From: an uncultured Mucilaginibacter sp.
GTDB lineage: Bacteria > Bacteroidota > Bacteroidia > Sphingobacteriales > Sphingobacteriaceae
Length of the DNA stretch: 64,000 nt
Assembly: GCA_913775265.1 (NCBI GenBank)
Contig: CAJYJH010000033.1
Coordinates: forward strand, 248,001-312,000
Reading direction: 5' to 3'
Program-made: the position numbers and the translations under genes
Notes under the pieces: generated by a model
Told to the model about the DNA's origin: nothing
Database searches by the model: none
Seen by the model: the letters and a program-made list of their open reading frames with translations, nothing else
Shown: positions 7,484 through 61,993 of the stretch, piece by piece
Position numbering within the stretch: position 1 is the stretch's first letter
Layout of the letters: each line of letters opens with the position of its first letter

Positions 7484-8500
7484 ATGGCTGTACTCTCTAT
7501 CATCATACCGGTTTACAACAAAGAGCAATACATCAACGGCTGTTTAACATCCATCCTTAACCAAACATTTACCGACTTTGAACTGATTTTAGTAAATGAC
7601 GGATCAACCGATGGTAGCGAAGCTGCATGCCGTCGGTTTGCCGAGGCTGATAATCGTATAACGCTTATTACTAAACCCAATGGTGGTGTATCATCTGCCC
7701 GTAACGTTGGCTTAAGCAAGGCAAGCGGTAAGTACATTGGCTTTATAGATAGTGACGACGCTATAGAGCCTGATATGTATGAATTACTGATCCGGAATGC
7801 AGAACAACACCAGGCTGATATATCTATATGCCGACTAAAGACCATTTTTCCTGATAAAACTGTAGCTCCGGCAGAGCAGGAGGGTGTTGAGGTTTTTAAG
7901 CATGAGCAGGCTTTGTCGCTGTTCTTAAAAGGCGAGCTGGACATGAGTGCCAATAATAAGATTTATAAAGCCGAGCTGGCCAAGCAAGTACAATTTAGCG
8001 GACATGTTTACGAGGATATTTTATATCTCAGCAAGGTATTTTTAAAAGCTAAGAAATCGGTTTTCGAGAATGTAGTAAAGTACCATTATATTGTGCGTGA
8101 CAGTTCGGTGAGTGTAAAACAATTCAATGCCCGCTATTTGGAAACTATTGCCGTATCGGCAGAGATTGTAGAAATGGTAGAAGCACAAGTTCCCAATTGC
8201 TTACCCAAAGCGCAGGCTTTTGATGTTACTGCCAATCTTTCATTACTCAACTTGTTGCTGTTAGCAGGTGCAGATGTTTATCCACAGGCGTATCAACAGG
8301 TGATTGACAAACTTAAGTCCTACAGTCAGTTTATCAAAAATAGTCCGGAGGTCAGGAAAAAGCATAAAATGGCTTATCGGTTGTTTGTTCTGTCACCGTG
8401 GCTATATACTAAAGCTATGCATGTATACAGCGTGTTAACCGGTGCCGAAACAACTAAACGAACTAAAAAGAAATCTCCTAAAGCTAATGGGGGTGGCTGA
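7484..8500 (+). CDS. Glycosyltransferase family 2
   Basis: Cytoplasmic GT-A fold glycosyltransferase of 338 residues that should add one sugar to the lipid-linked EPS repeat unit. The N-terminal GT2 domain is clear: LSIIIPVYNKEQYINGCLTS, then ILVNDGSTDGSEAAC, then KPNGGVSSARNVGLSKASG. The metal- and nucleotide-sugar-binding acidic motif is FIDSDDAIEPDMY. The C-terminal third has no recognised domain and ends in a basic tail (TKRTKKKSPKANGGG). The ATG at 7484 lies 19 bp after the flippase stop. The end overlaps the acyltransferase gene by 14 bp. Donor and acceptor are unknown. Confidence 0.93.
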   Translation: MAVLSIIIPVYNKEQYINGCLTSILNQTFTDFELILVNDGSTDGSEAACRRFAEADNRITLITKPNGGVSSARNVGLSKASGKYIGFIDSDDAIEPDMYELLIRNAEQHQADISICRLKTIFPDKTVAPAEQEGVEVFKHEQALSLFLKGELDMSANNKIYKAELAKQVQFSGHVYEDILYLSKVFLKAKKSVFENVVKYHYIVRDSSVSVKQFNARYLETIAVSAEIVEMVEAQVPNCLPKAQAFDVTANLSLLNLLLLAGADVYPQAYQQVIDKLKSYSQFIKNSPEVRKKHKMAYRLFVLSPWLYTKAMHVYSVLTGAETTKRTKKKSPKANGGG

Positions 8501-50481: not shown

Positions 50482-50614
50482 AAAGTTAATGGTTGAATTA
50501 TATTAGCAAGTTAGTAACAAAGATTGATATTTAGCGGTTACGGTTTTCCTCAATATTTTTTGAATTAAAACAGTGAATTGATGAAAGGGTAATAAATTGA
50601 CTCAAATATTTCTC

Positions 50615-50656
50615 AAACAAAAAATCCCAGCCATAGCTGACCGGGATTTTTTGTTT
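50615..50656 (-). terminator. Hairpin terminator after sucD
   Basis: The arm 50615-50628 (ending AAAAAATCCC) pairs with 50643-50656 (starting GGGATTTTTT), with a 14-nt loop. A-rich and T-rich ends allow termination of the minus-strand sucD transcript and possibly readthrough from the other side. Confidence 0.75.
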
Positions 50657-50657
50657 T

Positions 50658-50694
50658 GTCAAGTGTCTTGACTCTATATTCCTTTGAATCTAGA
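50658..50694. repeat. Degenerate short repeat next to sucD
   Basis: Units such as GTCTTGACTC and TTTGAATCTAGAC fill the gap between the sucD stop and its terminator. Their style matches the repeats at 28917-29004 and inside ispG (32492-32527). Evidence is similarity of short units only. Confidence 0.4.
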
Positions 50695-51573
50695 CTATGC
50701 TAATTTAGCCAGTTCTTCTGCCATAGCAGCACCAATTTCAGCGGGTGATTCTACAACGCGGATACCGCACTCGGCCATTATTTTCATTTTAGCCGCTGCT
50801 GTATCATCAGCACCGCCAACAATAGCACCAGCGTGGCCCATACGACGGCCCGGAGGCGCAGTTTGGCCGGCAATAAAGCCTACAACCGGTTTAGTGCCGT
50901 TTTCTTTGATCCAACGGGCAGCTTCGGCTTCCATACCACCACCAATTTCACCAATCATGATGATACCATGAGTTTCAGGGTCATTCATTAACAGTTCAAC
51001 CGCTTCTTTGGTAGGTGTACCAATGATAGGGTCACCACCAATACCAATAGCAGTTGTAATACCTAAACCGGCTTTAACAACCTGGTCAACGGCTTCGTAA
51101 GTTAAAGTTCCTGATTTTGATACTACGCCAACGTTACCTTTTTTAAAGATAAAGCCTGGCATAATACCTATTTTAGCCTCATCGGCAGTGATAACGCCAG
51201 GGCAGTTAGGGCCAATCAGGCGTGAATCTTTACCTACTAAGTATTCTTTCACCTGAATCATATCCTTAGTTGGGATACCTTCAGTAATACAAACAATTAC
51301 CTTGATGCCGGCTTCCGCAGCTTCCATAATAGCATCGGCTGCAAATGCAGGAGGTACGAAAATGATAGATACGTCGGCACCGGTTTGGTCAACCGCGTCT
51401 TTCACGGTATTGAACACCGGGCGCTCTAAGTGTTGTTGTCCGCCTTTACCCGGCGTAACACCACCAACTACCTGCGTTCCGTACTCAATCATTTGCGTAG
51501 CATGATAAGTACCTTCGTTACCGGTAAAACCCTGAACAATTACTTTAGAATCTTTATTTACGAGAACACTCAT
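50695..51573 (-). CDS. sucD: Succinyl-CoA synthetase alpha subunit
   Basis: TCA-cycle enzyme subunit of 292 residues that carries the phosphohistidine intermediate and binds CoA. Blocks: [90 protein letters not shown] and [19 protein letters not shown]. Active-site His247 is in [12 protein letters not shown]. The partner sucC is not within at least 12 kb on either side, so the two subunits are encoded apart. A good promoter precedes it and a terminator follows, so it is a single-gene unit. Confidence 0.97.
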
Positions 51574-51592
51574 GGTTTTAGTTTTAGTATGG

Positions 51593-51623
51593 CAAAGCTA
51601 TAATTATTACGGGTATTGTCAAA
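51593..51623 (-). promoter_or_regulatory. sucD promoter, textbook Bacteroidota form
   Basis: On the minus strand TTTG (51623-51620), a 19-bp spacer, then TAGCTTTG (51600-51593). Both elements and the spacing match TTTG-N19-TAnnTTTG exactly. The leader to the ATG at 51573 is about 12-15 nt. Confidence 0.78.
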
Positions 51624-51680
51624 TAAATTAGTTTAATGAGGTAATAACCGCAATTTTATGTCCGTAATAAGGTAATACGT

Positions 51681-52046
51681 TTATAAAGACTGATCGGTAG
51701 CCTGTGGTTTTTCCAGCTTGTAAATTGGATTCATTTGCACCCATTTTTCGCCGTTTTTAGCCCATGGTAAAGGTTGCTGAAATTTCCACATCAATTTTTC
51801 CCATTCCTGTACTTTGGGATTGGCCGAGTCGAGTCTGCCTTTCTTCTCGAACGAGAAATCATCCTCGGCCTCTATAATCATAAATAATCGGTTACCTGTG
51901 CGGTAAATATTCATATCTATGATGCCGGATTGCCGGATACTATCGGTAATTTCGGGCCAGCTGTTGTGCGGTTGGTGATAGCTTTCATATTCAGTTATTA
52001 AGTCGGCGTCGTCTATTAGGTCTAATGCCATGCATATTCTCTTCAT
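51681..52046 (-). CDS. rhaM: L-rhamnose mutarotase family protein (deoxyhexose anomer exchange)
   Basis: Small enzyme of 121 residues in the RhaM family (dimeric alpha-beta barrel) that interconverts alpha and beta anomers of L-rhamnose. Blocks: KRICMALDLIDDADLITEYE, SYHQPHNSWPEITDSI with the active-site His, IIDMNIYRTGNRLFMIIEAE, WEKLMWKFQQPLPWAK and GEKWVQMNPIYKLE. It follows the fucP-like permease by 63 bp on the same strand. With that neighbour, L-fucose or another 6-deoxyhexose is as likely as L-rhamnose, because the family and the transporter point to different but similar sugars. Confidence 0.9.
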   Translation of the reverse strand: MKRICMALDLIDDADLITEYESYHQPHNSWPEITDSIRQSGIIDMNIYRTGNRLFMIIEAEDDFSFEKKGRLDSANPKVQEWEKLMWKFQQPLPWAKNGEKWVQMNPIYKLEKPQATDQSL

Positions 52047-52109
52047 GAATTTGTGGATAGCTTAATATTTTCAGGGATAAGTGAGTATTTGTTAATGATC
52101 TTTTGTAAG

Positions 52110-53381
52110 TTAAATAGTTTCGGCATGTTGCAGCAGCTCGGCTTTACTAACCTTTACCCGGTGCCCACGCCAACCAAAAAAGGCAATCACCACAAAGCAA
52201 ACAGCCGGAACGTAGTAGCCCATTTGGATGTTGTTGTAAGCATCACTGATGTATCCATAAAATCTCGGAATGATAGCGCCGCCTACAATAGACATTATAA
52301 TAAGGCTGCTGCCAAATTCGCGGTCGGGCCCCAAGCCTTTAATACCTAAAGCAAATATGGTTGGGAACATAATCGACATAAAAAACGCAATGGCAATCAC
52401 GGTATAAATGGCTACATATCCATGTGCGTAAACAGCAACTACAGACAGAAAAACATTGATTACTGCATATACGGCTAACAGGCTGTTAGATTTAAAATAC
52501 TTCATCAGGAATGTACCTACAAACCGGCCTATCAAAAAAGCCAGGCCACAAAGACTGGCAAAGTGCCCGGCCGATTTTTCGGTAATGCCTGCGGCGTGTG
52601 GGGCGTACAATACAAATAAGCTTAAAACACAGGTTTGAGCGCCCACGTAAAAAAACTGTGCTATCACACCCCAGGCCAGTTGCGGATGGCGCAGTGTTTT
52701 AAATATGCTTCCATTTTTAGTTTCAGTTTCGCTGCTTTGCACATCAGGCAGTTTAGTGAATGAGAATGCAATGGCGATAATCAGTAGCACAGCGCCCAAC
52801 ACCAAATAGGGGATTTTTACAGAAGCTGCCTCAGCAGCTAAGGCCGCTTTCCTGGCAGCTTCGGTCATGGCAGCCAGTTGGTTGTCGCTGTGCGATTGTA
52901 TTAGGATCAGCTCTGTACCCACAAACGGGGCAATCATGGTAGCAAATCCGTTAAATGATTGTGCAAAATTAAGCCGTTGTTCGGCATGTGCGCTGTCGCC
53001 CAACACCGTCATGTACGGATTAGCAACAGTTTCGAGTATGGCCAGGCCACAGGCAATAATGAACAACGCTACTAAAAAGAATGAGTACAATTGCGTATTG
53101 GCAGCTGGTATAAATAAAAAGCTGCCTACAGAAAACAGTAAAAGGCCGGTAATAATGCCGGTTTTGTAACCAAACCGCTTCATGATCATACCGGCCGGAA
53201 TGGCCATTAAAAAATAAGCGGCATACACGGCAGTATCAACCAAAGTAGCCTGTACGTTTGATAAAGTGAACGAACGTTTTAAGTGGGGTATAAGTATGGG
53301 GTCGAGATTATGTGCAAAGCCCCATAAAAAGAAAAGGCTGGTAAGCAGTATAATAGCAAAAGTGTTGTTTGATTTGGTCAT
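52110..53381 (-). CDS. fucP: FucP-like sugar:H+ symporter (MFS)
   Basis: Inner-membrane MFS permease of 423 residues with twelve helices, in the fucose-galactose-glucose:H+ symporter (FucP) family. The signature LTSLFFLWGFAHNLDPILIP then HLKRSFTLSNVQATLVDTAV contains the conserved Asn/Asp that couples protons in FucP. AIPAGMIMKRFGYKTGIITG, LAILETVANPYMTVLG and RLNFAQSFNGFATMIAPFVG follow. A glucose/galactose or N-acetylglucosamine porter of the same family is possible. The adjacent mutarotase favours a 6-deoxyhexose. It starts at ATG 53381 with a predicted AraC operator and -7 box 190-250 bp upstream. Confidence 0.87.
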   Translation of the reverse strand: MTKSNNTFAIILLTSLFFLWGFAHNLDPILIPHLKRSFTLSNVQATLVDTAVYAAYFLMAIPAGMIMKRFGYKTGIITGLLLFSVGSFLFIPAANTQLYSFFLVALFIIACGLAILETVANPYMTVLGDSAHAEQRLNFAQSFNGFATMIAPFVGTELILIQSHSDNQLAAMTEAARKAALAAEAASVKIPYLVLGAVLLIIAIAFSFTKLPDVQSSETETKNGSIFKTLRHPQLAWGVIAQFFYVGAQTCVLSLFVLYAPHAAGITEKSAGHFASLCGLAFLIGRFVGTFLMKYFKSNSLLAVYAVINVFLSVVAVYAHGYVAIYTVIAIAFFMSIMFPTIFALGIKGLGPDREFGSSLIIMSIVGGAIIPRFYGYISDAYNNIQMGYYVPAVCFVVIAFFGWRGHRVKVSKAELLQHAETI

Positions 53382-53564
53382 TAGTGGCTGTGCTGTGTTA
53401 GTATAAATATTAGGTATGGTCGTAATAATATAACTGCTGAATGCTATTTATTGCATGGCCATCCGCATAAAGGGTTTAGTTAATAAATTGAAGTAAAATC
53501 TGTAAGCAGCATAAACTTATATATACATAGTTATGCTGGTGTTGTAATTGGTATAAGTGCAAAG

Positions 53565-53634
53565 CAAATGTAGTTTTGCCGGGACAAGGGCTTTACTATA
53601 AATCGGACTTTGATTTGTAAGAATCCGACTTTTT
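53565..53634 (-). promoter_or_regulatory. AraC-type operator and -7 box for fucP-rhaM
   Basis: On the minus strand the half-sites AAAGTCGGATT and AAAGTCCGATT start 21 bp apart (their G at 53629 and 53608). TACATTTG (53572-53565), a TAnnTTTG box, begins 57 bp after the first G. No TTTG lies at the right distance for -33, as expected for an activator-dependent promoter. A close copy with the same geometry lies upstream of susC at 54653-54723. The rest of the 324-bp spacer 53382-53705 holds no other feature I could support. Confidence 0.68.
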
Positions 53635-53705
53635 GAACTCGTATTTAAAAGTTACACGTTGAATTAGTAGCGGTTTTAAAACTGTAATCGGCTTAGTTTT
53701 GTAAA

Positions 53706-54587
53706 TTAAAAATTCATAGAATCGCTTTGGTTTCGGTACTTACGGGGCGACATGCCCGTGAGTTTTTTAAAGGTTTTAGAAAAATAGGATACGTTTTCAA
53801 ACCCCGTTACCTGAGCAATCTCCGAATAGGTAAGCTGGGTGGTTACAATCAGGTATTGAGCTTTCTCGATACGCTTAGATTGTATGTAATCTAAAGGCCT
53901 GTCGCCAACAATGTGCTGGAAGTTTCTGGAAAAATAATCGGTGTTTTGGTTGGCCCGCTCGGCCAGTGAGCTTACGGTGAGCTTTTTTTCCAGGTTAAGC
54001 ATAATGTAGCTGATAGCATCATGAATTTTAACAGGCATGTGCTGAAACTTTTTGGGCTTAAACAGTTCGGGTGTTAAAAATCGGGATACCAGGTACAGCA
54101 GCAAACCATGCGTTTCAACATAGTTAGATAAACTCTGCTGATTATTAAGCTCTTGATATTCCTCATAAAAAACTTTCTTTTCGTATATTTGAGGATTATC
54201 AGAACGGTTAATGCCTCTGCCTGGATTAATTAACAACAGCTGTTTAAAATTGGCCACATCCAATTCTTCAGCTTTAATTTTGTAGATGGCTCGATTGTTA
54301 GCAAATAAGGAAACACCGTCGGTGGATTCTTCAAAAAACTGGATAAAATACTGGCTTAGGTAATGATCGCATTTTAAATCGCAAAGCGTAAAACTGGGGA
54401 TCAGGTACAAAAAACCGGGTTCCAGGTTTAATGTGGTTCCTGCACTCGAAATTTCGCCACAACCACTGTCAATATAATAGAGACGATAATAAGGACTCAT
54501 GATGCCTTTATAATTCCATTTGTTACCTAATTGTACATAATCAATGTTTAACAAGGAGAATGTATGCCGCAGCGCTCGCCTGATCAT
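53706..54587 (-). CDS. AraC family transcriptional regulator of the deoxyhexose locus
   Basis: Regulator of 293 residues. The N-terminal ~150 residues form a cupin-like sugar-sensing domain (YYRLYYIDSGCGEISSAG, then FLYLIPSFTLCDLKCDHYLS). The C-terminal ~100 residues contain the AraC DNA-binding domain with two helix-turn-helix motifs (KLTVSSLAERANQNTDYFSR; QLTYSEIAQVTGFENVSYFS), ending KTFKKLTGMSPRKYRNQ. It lies between the fucP-like gene (same strand, downstream) and susC (divergent). Matching bipartite sites flank it in front of both targets, so it is the likely activator of both units. Its inducer is probably the transported sugar. Confidence 0.93.
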   Translation of the reverse strand: MIRRALRHTFSLLNIDYVQLGNKWNYKGIMSPYYRLYYIDSGCGEISSAGTTLNLEPGFLYLIPSFTLCDLKCDHYLSQYFIQFFEESTDGVSLFANNRAIYKIKAEELDVANFKQLLLINPGRGINRSDNPQIYEKKVFYEEYQELNNQQSLSNYVETHGLLLYLVSRFLTPELFKPKKFQHMPVKIHDAISYIMLNLEKKLTVSSLAERANQNTDYFSRNFQHIVGDRPLDYIQSKRIEKAQYLIVTTQLTYSEIAQVTGFENVSYFSKTFKKLTGMSPRKYRNQSDSMNF

Positions 54588-54901
54588 CGGTTCAATAATA
54601 ATTGGTAATCTAAGATGTAAAAAAGATTGCCAAATTAAATGATCTAATTACTAAAAGGTCGGATTATTACAAATAAAAGTCTCTTTAATTCAAAATTAAA
54701 GCCTTCAACTCCCAATATCTTTGACCATTGCCAATAACGAATTATCTGTTCGGGCAAATAACCAGTTAAACTTAAAATTTTCAAGTCTACATCTTTTTGT
54801 GCGGCAAAGCCGGAGACCTTGCTAATCTCTGTTTTTGCGATCACATGGATATTTATTGTCTCAAATTTTAAGAATCGTAAATCTAATTAACACTAAAACA
54901 A
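54588..54901. other. Regulatory spacer between araC and the susC leader
   Basis: This divergent spacer has no gene I can support. It holds the operator and -7 box described at 54653-54723. The remaining part (54730-54901) would be transcribed as the 5' part of a long susC leader. A minus-strand open frame across 54644-54844 covers the operator and promoter and has no family resemblance. Confidence 0.5.
54653..54723 (+). promoter_or_regulatory. AraC-type operator and -7 box for susC
   Basis: AAAAGGTCGGATT (G of GTCGGATT at 54658) and a degenerate second half-site AAAAGTCTCTTTA (G at 54679) lie 21 bp apart. The stretch from GTCGGATT to AAAGTC differs from the fucP operator at only two or so positions, including the spacer (TTACAAAT is shared). 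TATCTTTG (54716-54723) begins 58 bp after the first G, against 57 bp at fucP. Transcription would start near 54730, leaving a leader of about 300 nt before susC. Confidence 0.68.
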
Positions 54902-55018
54902 ATGCTTATGAAGAAATCAGGGAGATCCGATTTAAACACTTCAAGGCTTCGCACTAATGAAGCTTTTGTTACAGAGATTGTAACCTTACAAGTTAGCGAA
55001 CCATTTTTTACGCTTTAA
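54902..55018 (+). CDS. Possible 38-codon leader ORF before susC
   Basis: ATG at 54902 (or 54908) to TAA at 55016-55018 encodes 38 residues beginning MLMKKSGRSDLNTS and ending VSEPFFTL. It ends 9 bp before the susC ATG, within the predicted transcript. Inside it, GCTTC (54946-54950) can pair with GAAGC (54959-54963), followed by TTTTGTT, a weak terminator-like hairpin. It has no signal peptide and no family I recognise. It may be a leader peptide controlling susC, or a chance frame. Confidence 0.35.
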   Translation: MLMKKSGRSDLNTSRLRTNEAFVTEIVTLQVSEPFFTL

Positions 55019-55027
55019 AAAACCTTT

Positions 55028-58000
55028 ATGAATCTGATATTTACTAAAAAAAATAAATCTGAGCTGCTACCAGGCTGGAGCAGGTTTTTCGTTCATCTTA
55101 TTTTGATGAGCGGATTGTTGGTATTTTTTAATGATGCTCATGCCGGCAATCGCTTAAATACAAAAAGGCATAACAGCATTTTAGCCGTAACTGTTATGGG
55201 TACTGTAACCGATACTACGGGTCAGCCTTTGGTTGGCGTTGCAGTTAAGCTGAAAGGCGGAAATGCGGCTGCAGTAACAGATGTGAACGGTAAGTACAAT
55301 ATCTCGGTGCCCGATAATAACGGAACGCTGGTATTTACCTATGTAGGTTATATAACTCAGGAAGTAGGCATAGCCGGAAGAAGCACTGTTAATGTAGGTT
55401 TAAGAGCTGATAACAAAGGGTTGAATGAGGTTGTGGTGGTGGGTTACGGCACCCAAAAGAAAGTTAATCTAACAGGTTCTTTATCAACAGTCACATCAGC
55501 CAATATTGAGAACAGGCCTATTACACAGGCCTCACAAGCGCTGGCAGGTTTAGCCGCTGGCGTGCAGGTACAGCAGGGCGGCGGTCGCCCCGGTAGCGAT
55601 GGTGCAACGGTAACGGTTAGGGGTGTAGGTACTTTTAATTCCGGACGTGCCGCTTTGGTGCTTATTGACGGTATCCCAGGCTCGTTAGATGATGTAGCTC
55701 CGGATAATATTGCCAGCATGACGGTACTAAAGGATGCTGCTTCAGCATCTATTTACGGTAACCGGGCTGCTAACGGTGTTATATTAGTGACAACCAAGCG
55801 AGGTAAGGCCGGTAAAGTTTCGTTAAGTTATAACAACTATTTCGGCTGGGAAAAGGTAACGTCATTGCCTAAATTTGTAGACTCCTGGAGATATGCCGAG
55901 TTAACCGGTGCTACGCCCGAAATTGTAGAGCGTTATCGTAGCGGCTCTGATCCGGATAACTATCCCAACGTTTTCCATTTAAAAGATCTGTTAAACTCAG
56001 GTTCGGGTTTTCAGCAGTACCATAACATCAGTGTATCTGGTGGTGAGGGTAAAACCGTATTTTATTTATCGGGGATATACCGTAATCAAAAAGGCATCAC
56101 GGCAGAAACCAACAATGAGCGTTACGATATACAGGCTAATTTAGATACCCGTATAACCAGCGGGTTGTCTTTAAAAACAAGTTTGCTGGGTTTTTCTCAA
56201 GATCAAAACCAGCCGCAATCAAATGCATCAGGTATTGGCGGTATTATCGGCTATGCAGTGCGCGAACCTAATACTTTTGCAGGGCGTAAATCCGACGGTA
56301 CTTATGGCCGCCAAGATTTTTATGCACCTGAGGCCTGGTTAGACAGCGAAGGCTTTAACAATTTTAAAGCAAAGAACTTTTACGGTAATGCAGTGCTATC
56401 ATGGGATGTAGCCAAAGGCTTGAATTTTAGCGGTACAGCAGGGTATCATTATTATACCAGCGTTAATACCACTTACATTGCCGATATAAACCTGGACCGT
56501 AACACTTACGTAGGGCCAAACAGTCTCCGGAAAACTCATGTTGACGGCCAGGAAGTAACGTTGATTGCTTTGGCGAAATATAACAGGTCGTTCGGTCAGC
56601 ATAATATTAATTTATTAGCAGGTTACCAGCAAGAAGAGCACCGCGACAATAATTTTAGTGCTTTCCGCGATCGATTTCCTAATAATTTGCTATATGAATT
56701 GGATGCTGGGGCAACCACAAATCAGCAAAACGGCGGGTTTGCCAACGAGTATGCTTTTCAGTCGGTATTTGGTCGATTAAATTATGATTTTAATGGAAAG
56801 TATCTTTTTGAAGCTAATGCCAGATATGATGGGTCATCGAGGTTTGCTCCGGGTAACCGTTTTGGTTTCTTCCCGGCAGTGTCTGCCGGATGGCGCATCA
56901 GCGAAGAATCTTTTGTAAAAGATAATGTAAACTGGTTAAGCGAGCTTAAGCTCCGGGCTTCTTACGGTACTTTAGGTAATGCCAACATCAGCAATTACCC
57001 TTACCAGTATGCCATTAGCACTGGTCCGAGGTATACGTTTGGTGGTACTATAGCACCTGGGGCTGCGGTTACAGATGCTGCAAACGCCGCTATTCAATGG
57101 GAAACTACAACGACGGCCGATATAGGTTTGGACTTTGGTTTGTTTAAAGGAAAATTAACGGGTACCCTGGATGTATACGACAGAACTGCCAAAGACATTT
57201 TATACCGGGTTCCGGTATCAAGCACTCTGGGTTTAAATCCTCCTGTAGTAAATGCCGGTTCTATCAAAAACCGTGGTTTTGAGGCAAGCTTAACTTACAA
57301 TGCACAAGTAGGTAAACTAAGATTAGCCGTAACACCCAACTTCTCTTACAACCAGCAAAAAATTATCAAAATTGCCGGAGATCTGCAAAACGTAATACCT
57401 AACCTGTTTTTAGGTCAGCCTTTAGATCCGATTTACGGCTACGTAGCCGACGGTATTTTTAGAGATGCGGCCGATGTATCCAGCTACCCAACACAACCTA
57501 TCCCAGGCCAGCCGGGTGTAATTCGGTTTAAAGATATCAGCGGTCCTAATGGTGTCCCGGATGGTAAAGTTGATCCTACTTACGACCGTAAAATTATCGG
57601 TACTAAAAATCCTAAAACAACTTTTGGTTTAAATATCAACGCTGGTTACGGAGATTTTGATTTCTCTATGCTTTTGGCCGGTCTGGGCGGTTATACCGTG
57701 CAGATGGGATCATACCAGGCTTTTGCTTACTACAACGCCGGTAACATACAGCAATGGCAGGCCGATAATGCCTGGACTACGGCCAACCCCGATCCTAATG
57801 CCAAATACCCGCGCATAACTGCGCTTAATCAGGGTAGCGCTAATGTGCAAACCAATTCTTTCTGGAATCGTTCGGGTACTTACCTCCGGCTTAAAAACAT
57901 TCAGTTAGGCTATAGTTTGCCGTCTGCACTCATCAAAAAAATGGGAGTCGATAAAATCAGGCTTTTTGTAGGCGGCCAAAATCTTTTCTCGCTCAATAGT

Positions 58001-58105
58001 TTCTATCCGGGCTGGGATCCTGAAAACAGCCAGAGCGCCGGCGATCAGCCAAACTTCTATCCACTCACTGCCATTTACACTTTTGGCTTGAATGTTAAGT
58101 TTTAA
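55028..58105 (+). CDS. SusC/RagA family TonB-dependent outer-membrane transporter
   Basis: Outer-membrane protein of 1025 residues that imports oligosaccharides with its SusD partner, driven by TonB. A signal peptide (FFVHLILMSGLLVFFNDAHA) precedes a carboxypeptidase-regulatory-like beta domain (MGTVTDTTGQPLVGVAVKLK, then GTLVFTYVGYITQEV). The TonB-box-like segment is LNEVVVVGYGTQKK. The plug contains RPITQASQALAGLAAGVQVQ, then VTVRGVGTF, LIDGIPGSL and DAASASIYGNRAANGVILVT. The rest is the beta-barrel, ending YPLTAIYTFGLNVKF with C-terminal Phe. The susD gene follows after 29 bp. The regulation seen upstream implies a 6-deoxyhexose-containing substrate. No glycoside hydrolase is nearby. Confidence 0.95.
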   Translation: MNLIFTKKNKSELLPGWSRFFVHLILMSGLLVFFNDAHAGNRLNTKRHNSILAVTVMGTVTDTTGQPLVGVAVKLKGGNAAAVTDVNGKYNISVPDNNGTLVFTYVGYITQEVGIAGRSTVNVGLRADNKGLNEVVVVGYGTQKKVNLTGSLSTVTSANIENRPITQASQALAGLAAGVQVQQGGGRPGSDGATVTVRGVGTFNSGRAALVLIDGIPGSLDDVAPDNIASMTVLKDAASASIYGNRAANGVILVTTKRGKAGKVSLSYNNYFGWEKVTSLPKFVDSWRYAELTGATPEIVERYRSGSDPDNYPNVFHLKDLLNSGSGFQQYHNISVSGGEGKTVFYLSGIYRNQKGITAETNNERYDIQANLDTRITSGLSLKTSLLGFSQDQNQPQSNASGIGGIIGYAVREPNTFAGRKSDGTYGRQDFYAPEAWLDSEGFNNFKAKNFYGNAVLSWDVAKGLNFSGTAGYHYYTSVNTTYIADINLDRNTYVGPNSLRKTHVDGQEVTLIALAKYNRSFGQHNINLLAGYQQEEHRDNNFSAFRDRFPNNLLYELDAGATTNQQNGGFANEYAFQSVFGRLNYDFNGKYLFEANARYDGSSRFAPGNRFGFFPAVSAGWRISEESFVKDNVNWLSELKLRASYGTLGNANISNYPYQYAISTGPRYTFGGTIAPGAAVTDAANAAIQWETTTTADIGLDFGLFKGKLTGTLDVYDRTAKDILYRVPVSSTLGLNPPVVNAGSIKNRGFEASLTYNAQVGKLRLAVTPNFSYNQQKIIKIAGDLQNVIPNLFLGQPLDPIYGYVADGIFRDAADVSSYPTQPIPGQPGVIRFKDISGPNGVPDGKVDPTYDRKIIGTKNPKTTFGLNINAGYGDFDFSMLLAGLGGYTVQMGSYQAFAYYNAGNIQQWQADNAWTTANPDPNAKYPRITALNQGSANVQTNSFWNRSGTYLRLKNIQLGYSLPSALIKKMGVDKIRLFVGGQNLFSLNSFYPGWDPENSQSAGDQPNFYPLTAIYTFGLNVKF

Positions 58106-58134
58106 ACGGTATTTCTCACTAAAATTCACAACAG

Positions 58135-59763
58135 ATGAAAATGCAATTATCAATCCGGGTTTTAAGCCTGGGATTTGTATTCAGCAGTATATTATTTTCA
58201 GGGTGTAAAAAAGACATCCTGGACAAGCAGCCCTTGTCGTCAGTATCAGATGCAACCTTTTGGCGCACCGCTAATGATGCCACACTGGCCCTTAACGGGG
58301 TTTATGATACCGGTAATGGGTATACTAATTATAACTTTTGGAGCGGGTTATCTATGATAAACCTCGACTTGGCAGCAGGCAACGGTTCTGAAAAAGAAAT
58401 GATTCCGGATCAATTTACCAATGGTTCACTTAACCCATCATATTACTTTGTAGGTGCTTTCTACTCGCAAACTTACAATCAGATAGGTCGGTGTAACAAC
58501 TTTTTGGCCAACATTGGCAAGGTTACCATGGACGAAAGCCAAAAAAAGGTAATGATCGGCGAAGTTAGAGCAATACGGGCTTACGATTATTTTAACCTGG
58601 CATTATACTTTGGCGATGTTCCGTTAGTAGAGAAACTGCTTACGGTTGATGAAGCTAACAGCGTAACGCGTACGCCTAAGGCTCAAGTCTGGGCTTTTTG
58701 CGAAAGCGAACTAAAAGCAGCAGCAGCGGCATTACCGGTATCCGTTCCGGATGCGCGAAACGGCCATCTTACTTCTGCTGCAACACTAGCCATCTTGGGC
58801 CGTTTACAAATGGCACAAAAGAAATGGACAGATGCTGCGGCTACTTATAAAACCATCATCGACTACAACTATTATATTGTAGATTCGAGATACCGTGAAT
58901 TGTTTTTAAATGCGGGCGAACTCAGCCGCGAAACACTTTTGGCACAGCAATACATGCAAAATTCTTATGATCATGCGCTGTTCCAATACTTAACTCCAGA
59001 AACCTGGGGAGGTTGGCACCAGTTTTCGCCTTTTAATGAATTGGTTAAAGAGTTTGAATGTACTGATGGCAAAACCATTGACCAGTCGCCATTGTATGAC
59101 AAAAACAACCCGTATAATAATCGCGACCCAAGACTCGACTTGACCGTCATGATTTCGGACCGGACAGTATTTCGCGGGCGTACTTATACTGCGAGACCCG
59201 GAACTACATTGCCCGACAGGTTAGATCAGTATCCAGGAGTGTGGAGTGGCTACGCTATTTATAAGTTTTTAGAAGATGATCCTACTTTAGGTTCTGTTTC
59301 TAACGATGGAAATAACTTTCCGCTAATTCGTTATCCCGAAGTTTTGCTGAGTTACCTGGAGTCGAGATTAGAATCTGGAAGCGGTGTTGATCAGACTTTG
59401 CTGGATGCTACCATCAATAAAGTTAGAGGAAGGGCAGCGGTACGTATGCCGGCCGTTACCACTACCGATCCGTCTGCGTTGCGTGCTATTATCCGGAGAG
59501 AGCGCCGCGTTGAGTTTGCTTTCGAAGGATTACGTTATTTTGATTGCCTGCGTTGGGGTATCATCGGCAGCGAAAATAACAAGCAGTTTACCGGGATGAA
59601 ATTAACCAACAATCCGTCTACCTACACTGCATTTCCGGTTGATGCTGATGGTTACTACATTTATAAAAAACGAAGCTTTATTACAGGCAAAAATGAGTTG
59701 TGGCCAATCCCACAGTCTGAAAGAGATTTAAATAAAAATCTGACTCAAAATCCAGGTTATTAA
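58135..59763 (+). CDS. SusD/RagB family substrate-binding lipoprotein
   Basis: Cell-surface lipoprotein of 542 residues that caps the SusC barrel and binds the glycan. Signal peptide with lipobox: VFSSILFSGC, Cys24 followed by KKD. The SusD N-terminal part is LDKQPLSSVSDATFWRTAND, then ATLALNGVYD. TPR-like helices include VRAIRAYDYFNLALYFGDVP and AATLAILGRLQMAQKKWTDA. The C-terminal signature is IRYPEVLLSYLESRLE, then AIIRRERRVEFAFEGLRYFD, CLRWG, and the end LWPIPQSERDLNKNLTQNPG. All typical. It forms a pair with susC and ends in a strong terminator. Confidence 0.96.
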   Translation: MKMQLSIRVLSLGFVFSSILFSGCKKDILDKQPLSSVSDATFWRTANDATLALNGVYDTGNGYTNYNFWSGLSMINLDLAAGNGSEKEMIPDQFTNGSLNPSYYFVGAFYSQTYNQIGRCNNFLANIGKVTMDESQKKVMIGEVRAIRAYDYFNLALYFGDVPLVEKLLTVDEANSVTRTPKAQVWAFCESELKAAAAALPVSVPDARNGHLTSAATLAILGRLQMAQKKWTDAAATYKTIIDYNYYIVDSRYRELFLNAGELSRETLLAQQYMQNSYDHALFQYLTPETWGGWHQFSPFNELVKEFECTDGKTIDQSPLYDKNNPYNNRDPRLDLTVMISDRTVFRGRTYTARPGTTLPDRLDQYPGVWSGYAIYKFLEDDPTLGSVSNDGNNFPLIRYPEVLLSYLESRLESGSGVDQTLLDATINKVRGRAAVRMPAVTTTDPSALRAIIRRERRVEFAFEGLRYFDCLRWGIIGSENNKQFTGMKLTNNPSTYTAFPVDADGYYIYKKRSFITGKNELWPIPQSERDLNKNLTQNPGY

Positions 59764-59781
59764 TTACAGTTTACAAAAAAA

Positions 59782-59813
59782 GAAAGGGCAAGCTTACCAA
59801 AGCTTGCCCTTTC
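59782..59813. terminator. Bidirectional hairpin terminator after susD
   Basis: GAAAGGGCAAGCTT (59782-59795) pairs exactly with AAGCTTGCCCTTTC (59800-59813), with a 4-nt loop. A7 before and GGTTTTTT after let it act for susD and for the convergent transglutaminase gene. Confidence 0.9.
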
Positions 59814-59832
59814 GGTTTTTTATAGCACTTGC

Positions 59833-61107
59833 CTATTTTGCAACTGCCAGTTTATGGTCTTTATTAACCATCGGCTTTTGCCAAAATAATTGTGGATTGT
59901 TGGTAGCATAAGCGGTCATATAACTGTTGCTCATTTTAGGTGCTTTGATGGTATTATAATCGCTTGGGTACAAATTTACATAATCAACAACCGCCTTATT
60001 GGGCGTTCTGGTTTCAATATTCCATTCGCTTTTCGTTGAGCATTGCAGCCAGTACAGGTTTTTTGACATGTAGTAGCCTAAGTAGTACTCTTTGGTCTGT
60101 TTGTTTTTATTGTTCCAGTTAGCGTCTGTATTTAGTACCAAATCATTCAGTTTGTCGGCATGTAGCTTGGCTCTCACTTCTTCGATGCTCAGCAAATTGC
60201 CATTTTTGTCGGCTACATAAGCGTTAAAGGTTGGGTCCATCCATACCCATTTGTTCAGGTTTTCAGACCATACCACATTAATCACATGGCAGTCACTATC
60301 CAACGTGTCTTTGGGCAGGCAGGTTATCATACGGGCTTTAAACCCTTCGGCCTGATAGGCATCTTTTAAAATAGTAGCCATCATGCGGCAGTTTACGCCG
60401 CGGTTGTCTTTCTTACAAACCTCAATCAAATCTGTTCCGTTTTTTGCTGATGGGTTGTTCGAACTGCCATCGTGTTTAACAGCGTTATGTACCCAAAACA
60501 ACAGGTTTTTCATTCGGGTAATTTCGTCGCCTTTACCCGCAACCGAATCCAGGTTGTATTTGGTTTTAAAAGCAATTAAATCCGGCGAACTGGCTTCCTG
60601 GTAAGTAAATACCGGTATTTCTTTGTTTACTTTACGGTCGTAAGCTCCCGACTGGCGCAGAATATATCCCTTATCACCGCGCTCACGTATGGTTTGCAAG
60701 GCGATTAAATAACGCTTTTCTTTGCGTAGACTTTCTAAGTCAGTATCAATAATCGTATTGTTGTAATTGCTGTAGCCCAACGCAACGCATTTTTCGAACG
60801 AGTTTAAAGCTGCTTCTTTTTTACCCTGCAAGGCTTCGTAACAGGCAATATTATAATACATTCCTGGTTCGCGCTCGCTAAAATAAGGCTTAACACTATC
60901 GGGCAAAACCGTGTAGTTACGCACCCATTGTTTAAGTATAGTGTCGGCACGCAGATACTCCTTATTTTTTGAGGCTTGCTGCCGGTCTTGCTCTAATTGG
61001 GTGGTATAATCCAAGAATCTTTGCACTGGTGCCGACAGCTTTTTTTGTTGTGCAGATGATGCAAAAGCACCCAAACTTAACAGTACGATGGCGAGTAGTT
61101 TTTTCAT
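59833..61107 (-). CDS. Secreted transglutaminase-like domain protein
   Basis: Exported protein of 424 residues. The ATG at 61107 is preferred to an upstream in-frame codon at 61137 because it gives a clean signal peptide (MKKLLAIVLLSLGAFASSAQ). The N-terminal third is helical with TPR-like spacing (YYNIACYEALQGKKEAALNS). A transglutaminase-like core follows, with Cys in RGVNCRMMATILKDAYQAEG, His in SDCHVINVVWSENLNKW and Asp in WVWMDPTFNAYVADKNG, the expected Cys-His-Asp triad. Probably a periplasmic peptidase or cross-linking enzyme. Substrate unknown. It converges with susD and is divergent from the VIT gene. Confidence 0.88.
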   Translation of the reverse strand: MKKLLAIVLLSLGAFASSAQQKKLSAPVQRFLDYTTQLEQDRQQASKNKEYLRADTILKQWVRNYTVLPDSVKPYFSEREPGMYYNIACYEALQGKKEAALNSFEKCVALGYSNYNNTIIDTDLESLRKEKRYLIALQTIRERGDKGYILRQSGAYDRKVNKEIPVFTYQEASSPDLIAFKTKYNLDSVAGKGDEITRMKNLLFWVHNAVKHDGSSNNPSAKNGTDLIEVCKKDNRGVNCRMMATILKDAYQAEGFKARMITCLPKDTLDSDCHVINVVWSENLNKWVWMDPTFNAYVADKNGNLLSIEEVRAKLHADKLNDLVLNTDANWNNKNKQTKEYYLGYYMSKNLYWLQCSTKSEWNIETRTPNKAVVDYVNLYPSDYNTIKAPKMSNSYMTAYATNNPQLFWQKPMVNKDHKLAVAK

Positions 61108-61273
61108 GATGCGAGGTTCAGTTAATTTATAATACAAGATGCTGTATATAAACGAAATATTGCAGCAACTTTTAATTTTTTTATTCCATTTCTAAATAAG
61201 TATTAAAAAGAACAACCGCTATTACAACGGGTTGTCTAACTGTAAATTGAAGTCTTCTTAATACTTGCATGCC

Positions 61274-61993
61274 ATGATAAACGCCGATGCTACCTCCAAA
61301 CAGATGAATAACGAAAAGCATTACATCAACCGTGTAGGCTGGCTTAGGGCCGGAGTGTTAGGGGCTAATGATGGCATACTCTCAACCACCAGTTTAGTGA
61401 TTGGCGTAGCGGCTGCAACTGCAGTAAGGAATACAATTATTTTAACTGCCTTATCGGGCTTGATAGCCGGTGCCATGTCGATGGCTGCCGGCGAATATGT
61501 TTCGGTAAGTTCGCAGGAAGAGACAGAGAAGGCAGACATCGCCCGCGAAAAATCTGAACTCCAGGAAATGCCTGAGCAGGAGTTACAGGAGATTATAGCC
61601 ATATACAAAAACCGGGGACTTAGCGATGATTTGGCCCAGGAGGTGGCTATTGCACTAACCAAGCATAACGCGCTCGAAACTCACCTTCGCGACGAATTAG
61701 GGATGACCGAAATATCGGCTGCCAAGCCATTGCAAGCCGCACTGGCATCATTTGCATCATTTTTAGCCGGTGCGCTGCTACCGTTAGTAGTATCAATTTT
61801 TGCGCCTTTAAAAACCATGATTTTGTGGCAATATGCCAGCTCTATTATATTTTTAATGTTTTTGGGCGCAGTAGCTGCCAAAACAGGAGGAGCGCCTGTG
61901 CTAAAAAGTATGATGAAAATTTGCTTTTGGGGAACTATTGCTATGGCTACTACGGCATTAATCGGGCACCTTTTTGGAACTCACATCAGTTAG
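61274..61993 (+). CDS. VIT1/CCC1 family metal transporter
   Basis: Membrane protein of about 239 residues in the vacuolar iron transporter (VIT/CCC1) family, which moves Fe2+ or Mn2+ out of the cytoplasm. Blocks: VGWLRAGVLGANDGILSTTS, LSGLIAGAMSMAAGEYVSVS and SQEETEKADIAREKSELQEM, where the cytoplasmic Glu-rich metal-binding domain begins. LASFASFLAGALLPLVVSIF, then the last two helices, follow. Five helices are expected. The ATG at 61274 is preferred to a TTG at 61265. Located away from the heme genes, but iron handling may be a shared theme. Confidence 0.92.
   Translation: MINADATSKQMNNEKHYINRVGWLRAGVLGANDGILSTTSLVIGVAAATAVRNTIILTALSGLIAGAMSMAAGEYVSVSSQEETEKADIAREKSELQEMPEQELQEIIAIYKNRGLSDDLAQEVAIALTKHNALETHLRDELGMTEISAAKPLQAALASFASFLAGALLPLVVSIFAPLKTMILWQYASSIIFLMFLGAVAAKTGGAPVLKSMMKICFWGTIAMATTALIGHLFGTHIS

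Follow-up and report, generated by a model that had tools for sequence, protein, structure and literature searches.

What an AraC-family regulator controls when a repeat pair of the same geometry stands on either side of its gene is the question raised by this locus. In the window (the whole stretch of Mucilaginibacter DNA analysed here, 64,000 nucleotides), a 21-bp direct repeat (GTCGGATTnTTACAAAT..., then GTC...), found both by direct reading and by script, is situated upstream of fucP as well as of susC, with an araC gene between the two sites. We consider it very probable that the encoded protein (53706-54587), together with its near paralogs, belongs to the class-II transcription activators and serves an L-fucose regulon.

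The araC locus and its paired sites

The features of the locus are given below (offset: distance in bp from the first G of repeat 1 to the first base of TAnnTTTG).

51681-52046, minus strand: RhaM-family mutarotase (PF05336), 121 aa, Pfam 101 bits, behind fucP
52110-53381, minus strand: FucP-type L-fucose:H+ symporter, 423 aa, TIGR00885 384.5 bits (equivalog cut-off 280.4)
53565-53572, minus strand: fucP -7 box TACATTTG, offset 57, predicted transcription start ~53560
53588-53608, minus strand: putative fucP operator, repeat 2 (promoter-proximal half-site) GTCCGATTTATAGTAAAGCCC, predicted -48 to -28, overlapping the -33 region
53609-53629, minus strand: putative fucP operator, repeat 1 (promoter-distal half-site) GTCGGATTCTTACAAATCAAA, predicted -69 to -49, kept across relatives
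53706-54587, minus strand: AraC-family regulator, 293 aa, HTH_18 73 bits
54658-54678, plus strand: putative susC operator, repeat 1 GTCGGATTATTACAAATAAAA, read directly, kept across relatives
54679-54699, plus strand: putative susC operator, repeat 2 GTCTCTTTAATTCAAAATTAA, read directly, compared with orthologous regions
54716-54723, plus strand: susC -7 box TATCTTTG, offset 58, predicted transcription start ~54728
55028-58105, plus strand: SusC-type TonB-dependent receptor, 1025 aa, TIGR04056 917 bits
58135-59763, plus strand: SusD-type lipoprotein, 542 aa, PF07980 152.8 bits

The geometry first read from this DNA holds at both sites: the repeat pairs before fucP and susC occupy 53588-53629 (minus strand) and 54658-54699 (plus strand), within coordinates that had been drawn with ~5 bp of extra flank; the TAnnTTTG box, expected 57-58 bp after the first G, begins at exactly 57 bp (fucP) and 58 bp (susC); and, as had been claimed for the -33 position, TTTG is absent from the second repeat (which corresponds to the -33 stretch) of both. 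The second half-site is strong at fucP (7/8 letters of GTCGGATT) and weak at susC (GTCTCTTT, 5/8 letters of the same). The available text of PMC9723704 places a TAnnTTTG box for the primary sigma factor of a flavobacterium at -12 to -5, on which basis transcription is predicted to start at ~53560 (fucP) and ~54728 (susC), at most 2 bp from the positions guessed earlier (53558 and 54730).

Matches to GTCGGATTNTTACAAATNAAAGTC, a 24-bp pattern, at up to 3 mismatches numbered two in the window and none in 100 dinucleotide shuffles; across the 4.9-Mb genome there were four (the two window sites, which are exact, and two with 3 mismatches), and the reversed pattern had none in the same 4.9 Mb. Taken by itself, the 17-base half-site pattern does not rise significantly above chance in the window, where allowing up to 3 mismatches gives 2 matches (shuffle mean 0.96), and its use at 1 mismatch over the whole genome was rejected, given that the reversed control (30 matches) exceeded the real count (10); the five exact matches were retained, and the five 1-mismatch places lay inside or between genes by ORF positions, none of them visibly fucose-linked. 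A weight matrix trained on 44 non-redundant sites, all from outside the window's own genome (although held out in part only, because the training set includes near-orthologous sites of close relatives), scored the window sites at 47.9 and 36.6 as the sole window matches of at least 6. The best score of the reversed window was -3.1, and 2.1 Mb of reversed control sequence gave 15 matches of at least 6, with a maximum of 14.5. Furthermore, in three orthologous fucP upstream regions the invariant positions amounted to 32/42 in the operator (14/21 in repeat 2), 8/8 in the box and 92/274 elsewhere, and on the susC side (two genomes) to 39/42, 8/8 and 286/390, respectively.

The C-terminal domain of the regulator is covered by the full HTH_18 profile (residues 208-287, E 2e-20), with a double helix-turn-helix, and its N-terminal part, for which there was no Pfam match, is predicted to form a beta-rich domain (strands within residues 8-105 and helices thereafter; pLDDT 83.3, pTM 0.59). 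Foldseek matched the model to whole AraC-type regulators as well as to the sensor domains of AraC and BgaR (best E ~1e-6 and 3e-7, rmsd mostly >4); full-length TM scores are low, so that the domain arrangement is tentative. Kinase, receiver and GntR-type domains had no match in the protein, the only domains matched being AraC-type ones, and judged by its sequence and predicted fold the regulator belongs among the AraC-type regulators. Its nearest named orthologs are found in an uncultured Mucilaginibacter (93% identity) and in M. oryzae (68%), and a paralog within the same genome (AraC2, contig C29) is 59% identical over 292 residues.

As to the neighbouring genes, the fucP equivalog cut-off (TIGR00885) is passed by three genes of the genome (the window fucP and two more) and by 5/5 related permeases scanned; against NF007524 the window FucP scores 345, below the cut-off of 427. 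E. coli FucP (3o7q) is a solved relative of the permease, and none was found for the reductase (see below) and the mutarotase at the cut-offs used. By gene context, the PF05336 mutarotase behind fucP is probably an L-fucose mutarotase: it, or a blastp relative, also occurs in the GH29/fucP/aldo-keto reductase sets of relatives (L107:9206-9541; L189:16834-17169). The susC and susD genes are adjacent, as in a Sus-like polysaccharide utilisation locus, and no glycoside hydrolase gene was present among the seven proteins scanned in 51681-61993, GH29 genes being located on contig C44.

Recurrence of the operator core with the AraC protein

An initial strict motif had 27 matches in 80 loci and 0 in reversed sequence, and it missed many relatives because position 5 accepts either A or T and there is variation at positions 9 and 12. 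For the genus, class and locus counts we used the core pattern GTCGGWTTNNTAYAANNNNNNGTC, which was derived from the upstream regions of relatives and is therefore fitted to them; the genus test includes some of these same relatives. The genus sample comprised 61 genomes, of which 23 carry the AraC at E 1e-50 or better and 38 do not. The exact core was present in 20/61, namely in 19/23 AraC-bearing genomes vs 1/38 of the others (Fisher p 5e-11, a value that overstates independence given the shared ancestry of the genus genomes), and the reversed-pattern control was found in 4/23 and 3/38 (p 0.41). The AraC-bearing genomes tend to be larger. A single AraC (at E 1e-50) is encoded in 12 of the 19 genomes that have both protein and core. 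The one genome with a core match outside the AraC-bearing set (G037) has no box there.

Four AraC-bearing genus genomes (G010, G050, G046 and G032) are devoid of the exact core. Sites with 1 mismatch exist in G010 and G050, with a box at 58 and 57, respectively (the G050 site having been found first in its named twin, L096); the training sites of the matrix for relatives include those of G010, G050 and G040, whose high scores are consequently by construction. In G046 the matrix finds two matches (31.0 and 25.7, box at 57), and in G032 one with a box at 57 whose score of 12.9 does not exceed that reached in controls (up to 15.0). At the class level (295 genomes) the core was found in 3 genomes, the AraC in 6 and both in 2, the core being missing from 4/6 AraC-bearing genomes; G118 has a core match without AraC, and no weight-matrix match.

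Conservation of the half-sites at orthologous loci had been named beforehand as a decisive check, and it was found. Among 80 named AraC loci (Mucilaginibacter, Pedobacter, Chitinophaga and others), with the core counted when it lay within araC or up to 700 bp from it, the exact core is present in 53/80 and the core with at most 1 mismatch in 60/80, vs 0/80 in the reversed-sequence control of the same loci; the remaining 20/80 have no nearby core at up to 1 mismatch.

Putative target genes and a proposed scattered regulon

The exact half-site search added three places in the same genome, one on contig C29 and two on contig C44. The C29 site (weight-matrix score 42.5, box at 57) lies between the gene of AraC2 and a divergent aldo/keto reductase gene, which is followed by a Zn-dehydrogenase gene. 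Each of the C44 sites lies upstream of a GH29 alpha-L-fucosidase gene: the intact one scores 41.3 and has its box at 57, and the other, which the weight matrix missed, combines a perfect proximal half with a degenerate distal one and has a box (TACATTTA, 1 letter off) 57 from the distal repeat. A joined search for repeats and box (spacing 57, up to 3 mismatches) returned the fucP site, the C29 site, both C44 sites and one unrelated place, vs one match in the control. Thus 2/5 GH29 genes of this genome have a site (one of these sites being the degenerate one), as does 1/3 of the genes over the fucP cut-off, i.e. the window fucP.

The spacing between operator and box is rigid: of 45 non-redundant sites (<80% alike), 18 have an exact TAnnTTTG beginning at 57 and 19 have it at 58 (37/45), and the other 17 windows of 7 bp contain no exact box (0.004 expected per window from shuffles). 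Of 96 distinct sites, 68 come from loci chosen for AraC, and for this reason the tally of targets was limited to the 40 genus-wide matches, which are less biased. These have an exact box at 57 or 58 in 28/40 and one with at most 1 mismatch in 37/40. Downstream genes were assigned from any locus sharing an identical 78-bp site context, and classified by blastp to reference proteins and by Pfam scans of representatives. The targets of the 40 sites are GH29 (16), fucP (4), susC (4), GH42 (4), HTCS (3), aldo/keto reductase (2), Zn-dehydrogenase (1), GH95 (1), GH43 (1) and others (4); the last comprise a site with no gene found (s18), one before an ORF without family (s84), one before a sigma factor-FecR-SusC set (s89) and an orphaned one (s6). 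GH42, GH43, HTCS and sigma-FecR-SusC targets are not specific to fucose.

Gene order in relatives bears on the claim that outer- and inner-membrane uptake of one sugar are coupled, and supports it. In G046, araC faces susC-susD-GH29 in both of its copies, with fucP next in one and the stretch examined ending after GH29 in the other. The G046 proteins are 69-70% (SusC) and 78-79% (SusD) identical to those of the window, and this likeness to a SusCD-GH29 set is the best evidence, at the sequence level, which suggests that the window SusCD handles a fucose-bearing glycan. Furthermore, G022 has the gene row GH29-GH97-fucP-reductase-mutarotase, and the order in G013 is identical (with a short fucP frame). 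In G048, whose AraC is 93% identical to that of the window and which has kept both paralogs, the susCD pair beside araC is missing and a relic site remains (L179 (G048:C1:4488000-4504000), position 7568, minus strand), consisting of operator repeat 1 without a -7 box; a susC 68% identical to the window's lies elsewhere in that genome behind an operator of its own, with the box at 58. The sites of G048, which is assembled in one contig, are situated at ~1.79, 2.95, 3.00 and 4.50 Mb. The original prediction of a compact regulon was wrong, since the sites are scattered over three contigs here and lie up to megabases apart in G048.

In the class-II layout of AraC activators, the half-sites lie upstream of the box and the inner one covers the -33 position. 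By analogy, we propose that L-fucose (or an early product of it) would reach the cytoplasm and act as the signal to AraC, a dimer of which would occupy the two 21-bp half-sites (about -69 to -49 and -48 to -28), with the inner subunit substituting for the missing -33 element and bringing RNA polymerase to the TAnnTTTG -7 box at offset 57 or 58. Switched on in this way would be SusCD (uptake across the outer membrane), FucP and the mutarotase (uptake across the inner membrane), two GH29 alpha-L-fucosidases, and the aldo/keto reductase with the Zn-dehydrogenase, which probably serve L-fucose oxidation. L-fucose isomerase (PF02952) had 0 matches in this genome (99.9% complete), while 3/14 control genomes were matched, 2 of them over the cut-off; this result, together with the reductase/dehydrogenase pair behind the operator, makes oxidation the likelier route of L-fucose. 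The oxidative L-fucose route, with a FucP-type permease in one genome (that of A. marincola HL-49), is discussed in the available part of PMC5507952. The regulated sugar is probably L-fucose.

More tentatively, a portable promoter cassette, ~65 bp long and made up of two 21-bp half-sites (in place of the -33 element) and the -7 box at 57 or 58, may define a single L-fucose regulon shared by Mucilaginibacter, Pedobacter and Chitinophaga, in which varied fucosidases, galactosidases and susCD pairs would be placed behind it, both AraC paralogs would read it where both exist, and HTCS or sigma factor targets would add, in some genomes, a cascade of two tiers that leads from a sugar signal in the cytoplasm to sensing at the envelope. 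HTCS genes with the operator and a box at 57 or 58 (L086:5935-9732, L164:8482-12278 and L169:4855-8529) suggest a regulatory cascade. A high-scoring site (L172, G040:C72, position 6058, minus strand; matrix score 51.7 as a training-set member) precedes a sigma factor-FecR-SusC set, with no -7 box in the normal position.

Alternative readings and known systems

The reading of the operator need not fall to the window protein: it might be done mainly by AraC2, or by both paralogs, in which case the window AraC would be no master switch but one reader of a pair, in competition or in a hierarchy. We regard this as the most credible of the alternatives, if still doubtful, as the aldo/keto reductase gene divergent from that of AraC2 (59% identity across 292 residues) is preceded by this operator and box as well, and G048 likewise retains both paralogs; the shared operator means that the window AraC may not be its sole reader. 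Nevertheless, the window sites lie on either side of the araC gene of the window itself, and the 12/19 genus genomes with AraC and core that possess a single AraC speak against AraC2 as the main reader. The sugar is a separate matter. Aldo/keto reductases of this kind can have a broad substrate range, the mutarotase family is named after L-rhamnose, and GH42, GH43, GH127 and GH3 genes are likewise found behind sites, all of which would suit a look-alike (L-galactose, D-arabinose or L-rhamnose) or a mixed plant-wall side chain. However, alpha-L-fucosidase families (GH29 and GH95) stand behind 17/40 genus-wide sites, and the window permease together with 5/5 related ones passes the fucP equivalog cut-off, so that a sugar other than L-fucose appears improbable.

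Repression of the fucP and susC promoters from the same sites would agree with the overlap of repeat 2 with the -33 region (where a repressor could act too) and with several Pedobacter loci in which the operator starts ~10 bp before the araC start codon, an arrangement that would suit autorepression of araC. We deem it more improbable still, since the rigid 57/58 spacing of the box, the lack of a -33 TTTG at the window sites and the position of the repeats upstream of the box correspond to the class-II activator layout. Moreover, AraC-type sites upstream of promoters in C. bescii are taken as activator sites in the available text of PMC8579813. That the twin sites, ~1 kb apart around one gene, reflect chance or a recent local duplication without regulatory role is scarcely credible, as loci of Mucilaginibacter, Chitinophaga and Pedobacter carry the operator too, and so do distant loci whose downstream genes are unrelated. 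Activation by AraC of an L-fucose regulon is the reading we prefer.

The proposed activator finds its textbook counterpart at E. coli araBAD, where two direct half-sites (I1-I2), 21 bp apart, adjoin the promoter. The AraC-type fold is shared by prediction; the similarity in sequence between the two regulators is mainly C-terminal, and a TAnnTTTG -7 box is present here in place of the sigma-70 hexamers there. Comparable systems have been reported in the Bacteroidota. AraC-type rhamnose regulators of the Bacteroides group are described with predicted direct repeats of 21-bp period (available texts of PMC3870299 and PMC3878776), and the latter, as far as available, reports for B. thetaiotaomicron a FucR of the GntR type and a RhaR of the AraC type. 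RhaR (BT3768, L-rhamnose) resembles the window AraC as an AraC-family protein of a Bacteroidota deoxyhexose regulon with a predicted 21-bp repeat, a likeness by description, and it differs in its sugar and in having a single target operon in B. theta (according to the same partial sources). FucR (BT1272) controls L-fucose use (PMC3878776, in part), as is proposed here for AraC; it is, however, of the GntR family and serves a single fucRIAKUP operon, whereas the present regulator is of the AraC family, has scattered targets and is accompanied by no PF02952 isomerase that could be found.

CgrA of Zobellia galactanivorans (ZGAL_3159) is comparable as an AraC-family activator of a scattered glycan regulon that includes a distant susCD (PMC5698469, main text); it acts on carrageenan and not on fucose, and the word 'operator' does not occur in that main text. 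The HTCS of Bacteroides have an AraC-type DNA-binding domain and direct repeats averaging 21 bp between sites (available text of PMC3878776), but are membrane sensor kinases, and the window AraC has no kinase or receiver match. Among the matches listed from open-access literature, judged by title and opening of the abstract or by passages of text, no AraC-type L-fucose regulator was recognised in this group. A probable regulator, its operator and its sugar can be named for fucose genes that are scattered in soil Bacteroidota. We consider that the operator may be used as a search tag for fucose-related enzymes and transporters that lack a known specificity (such as the window SusCD), and that the rigid 57/58-bp spacing allows a clear-cut test of the interplay between AraC activators and the Bacteroidota primary sigma factor.

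The leaders of the target genes yielded minor observations. The susC leader (54728-55027, predicted start to ATG) is ~300 nt long, and four related susC leaders measure ~340-385 nt, whereas most GH29 leaders span roughly 60-170 nt. We considered a conserved RNA element within the susC leader and rejected it, seven related leaders being unalignable outside the operator and box; an Rfam scan of 50500-60000 returned no family at gathering score. The short element ACCAATTA lies on the minus strand at window positions 53545 and 54599, the latter 12-19 bp before the start of the window araC. It recurs in sense orientation in 12/39 non-redundant leaders (antisense 0), and is possibly a translation or promoter element.
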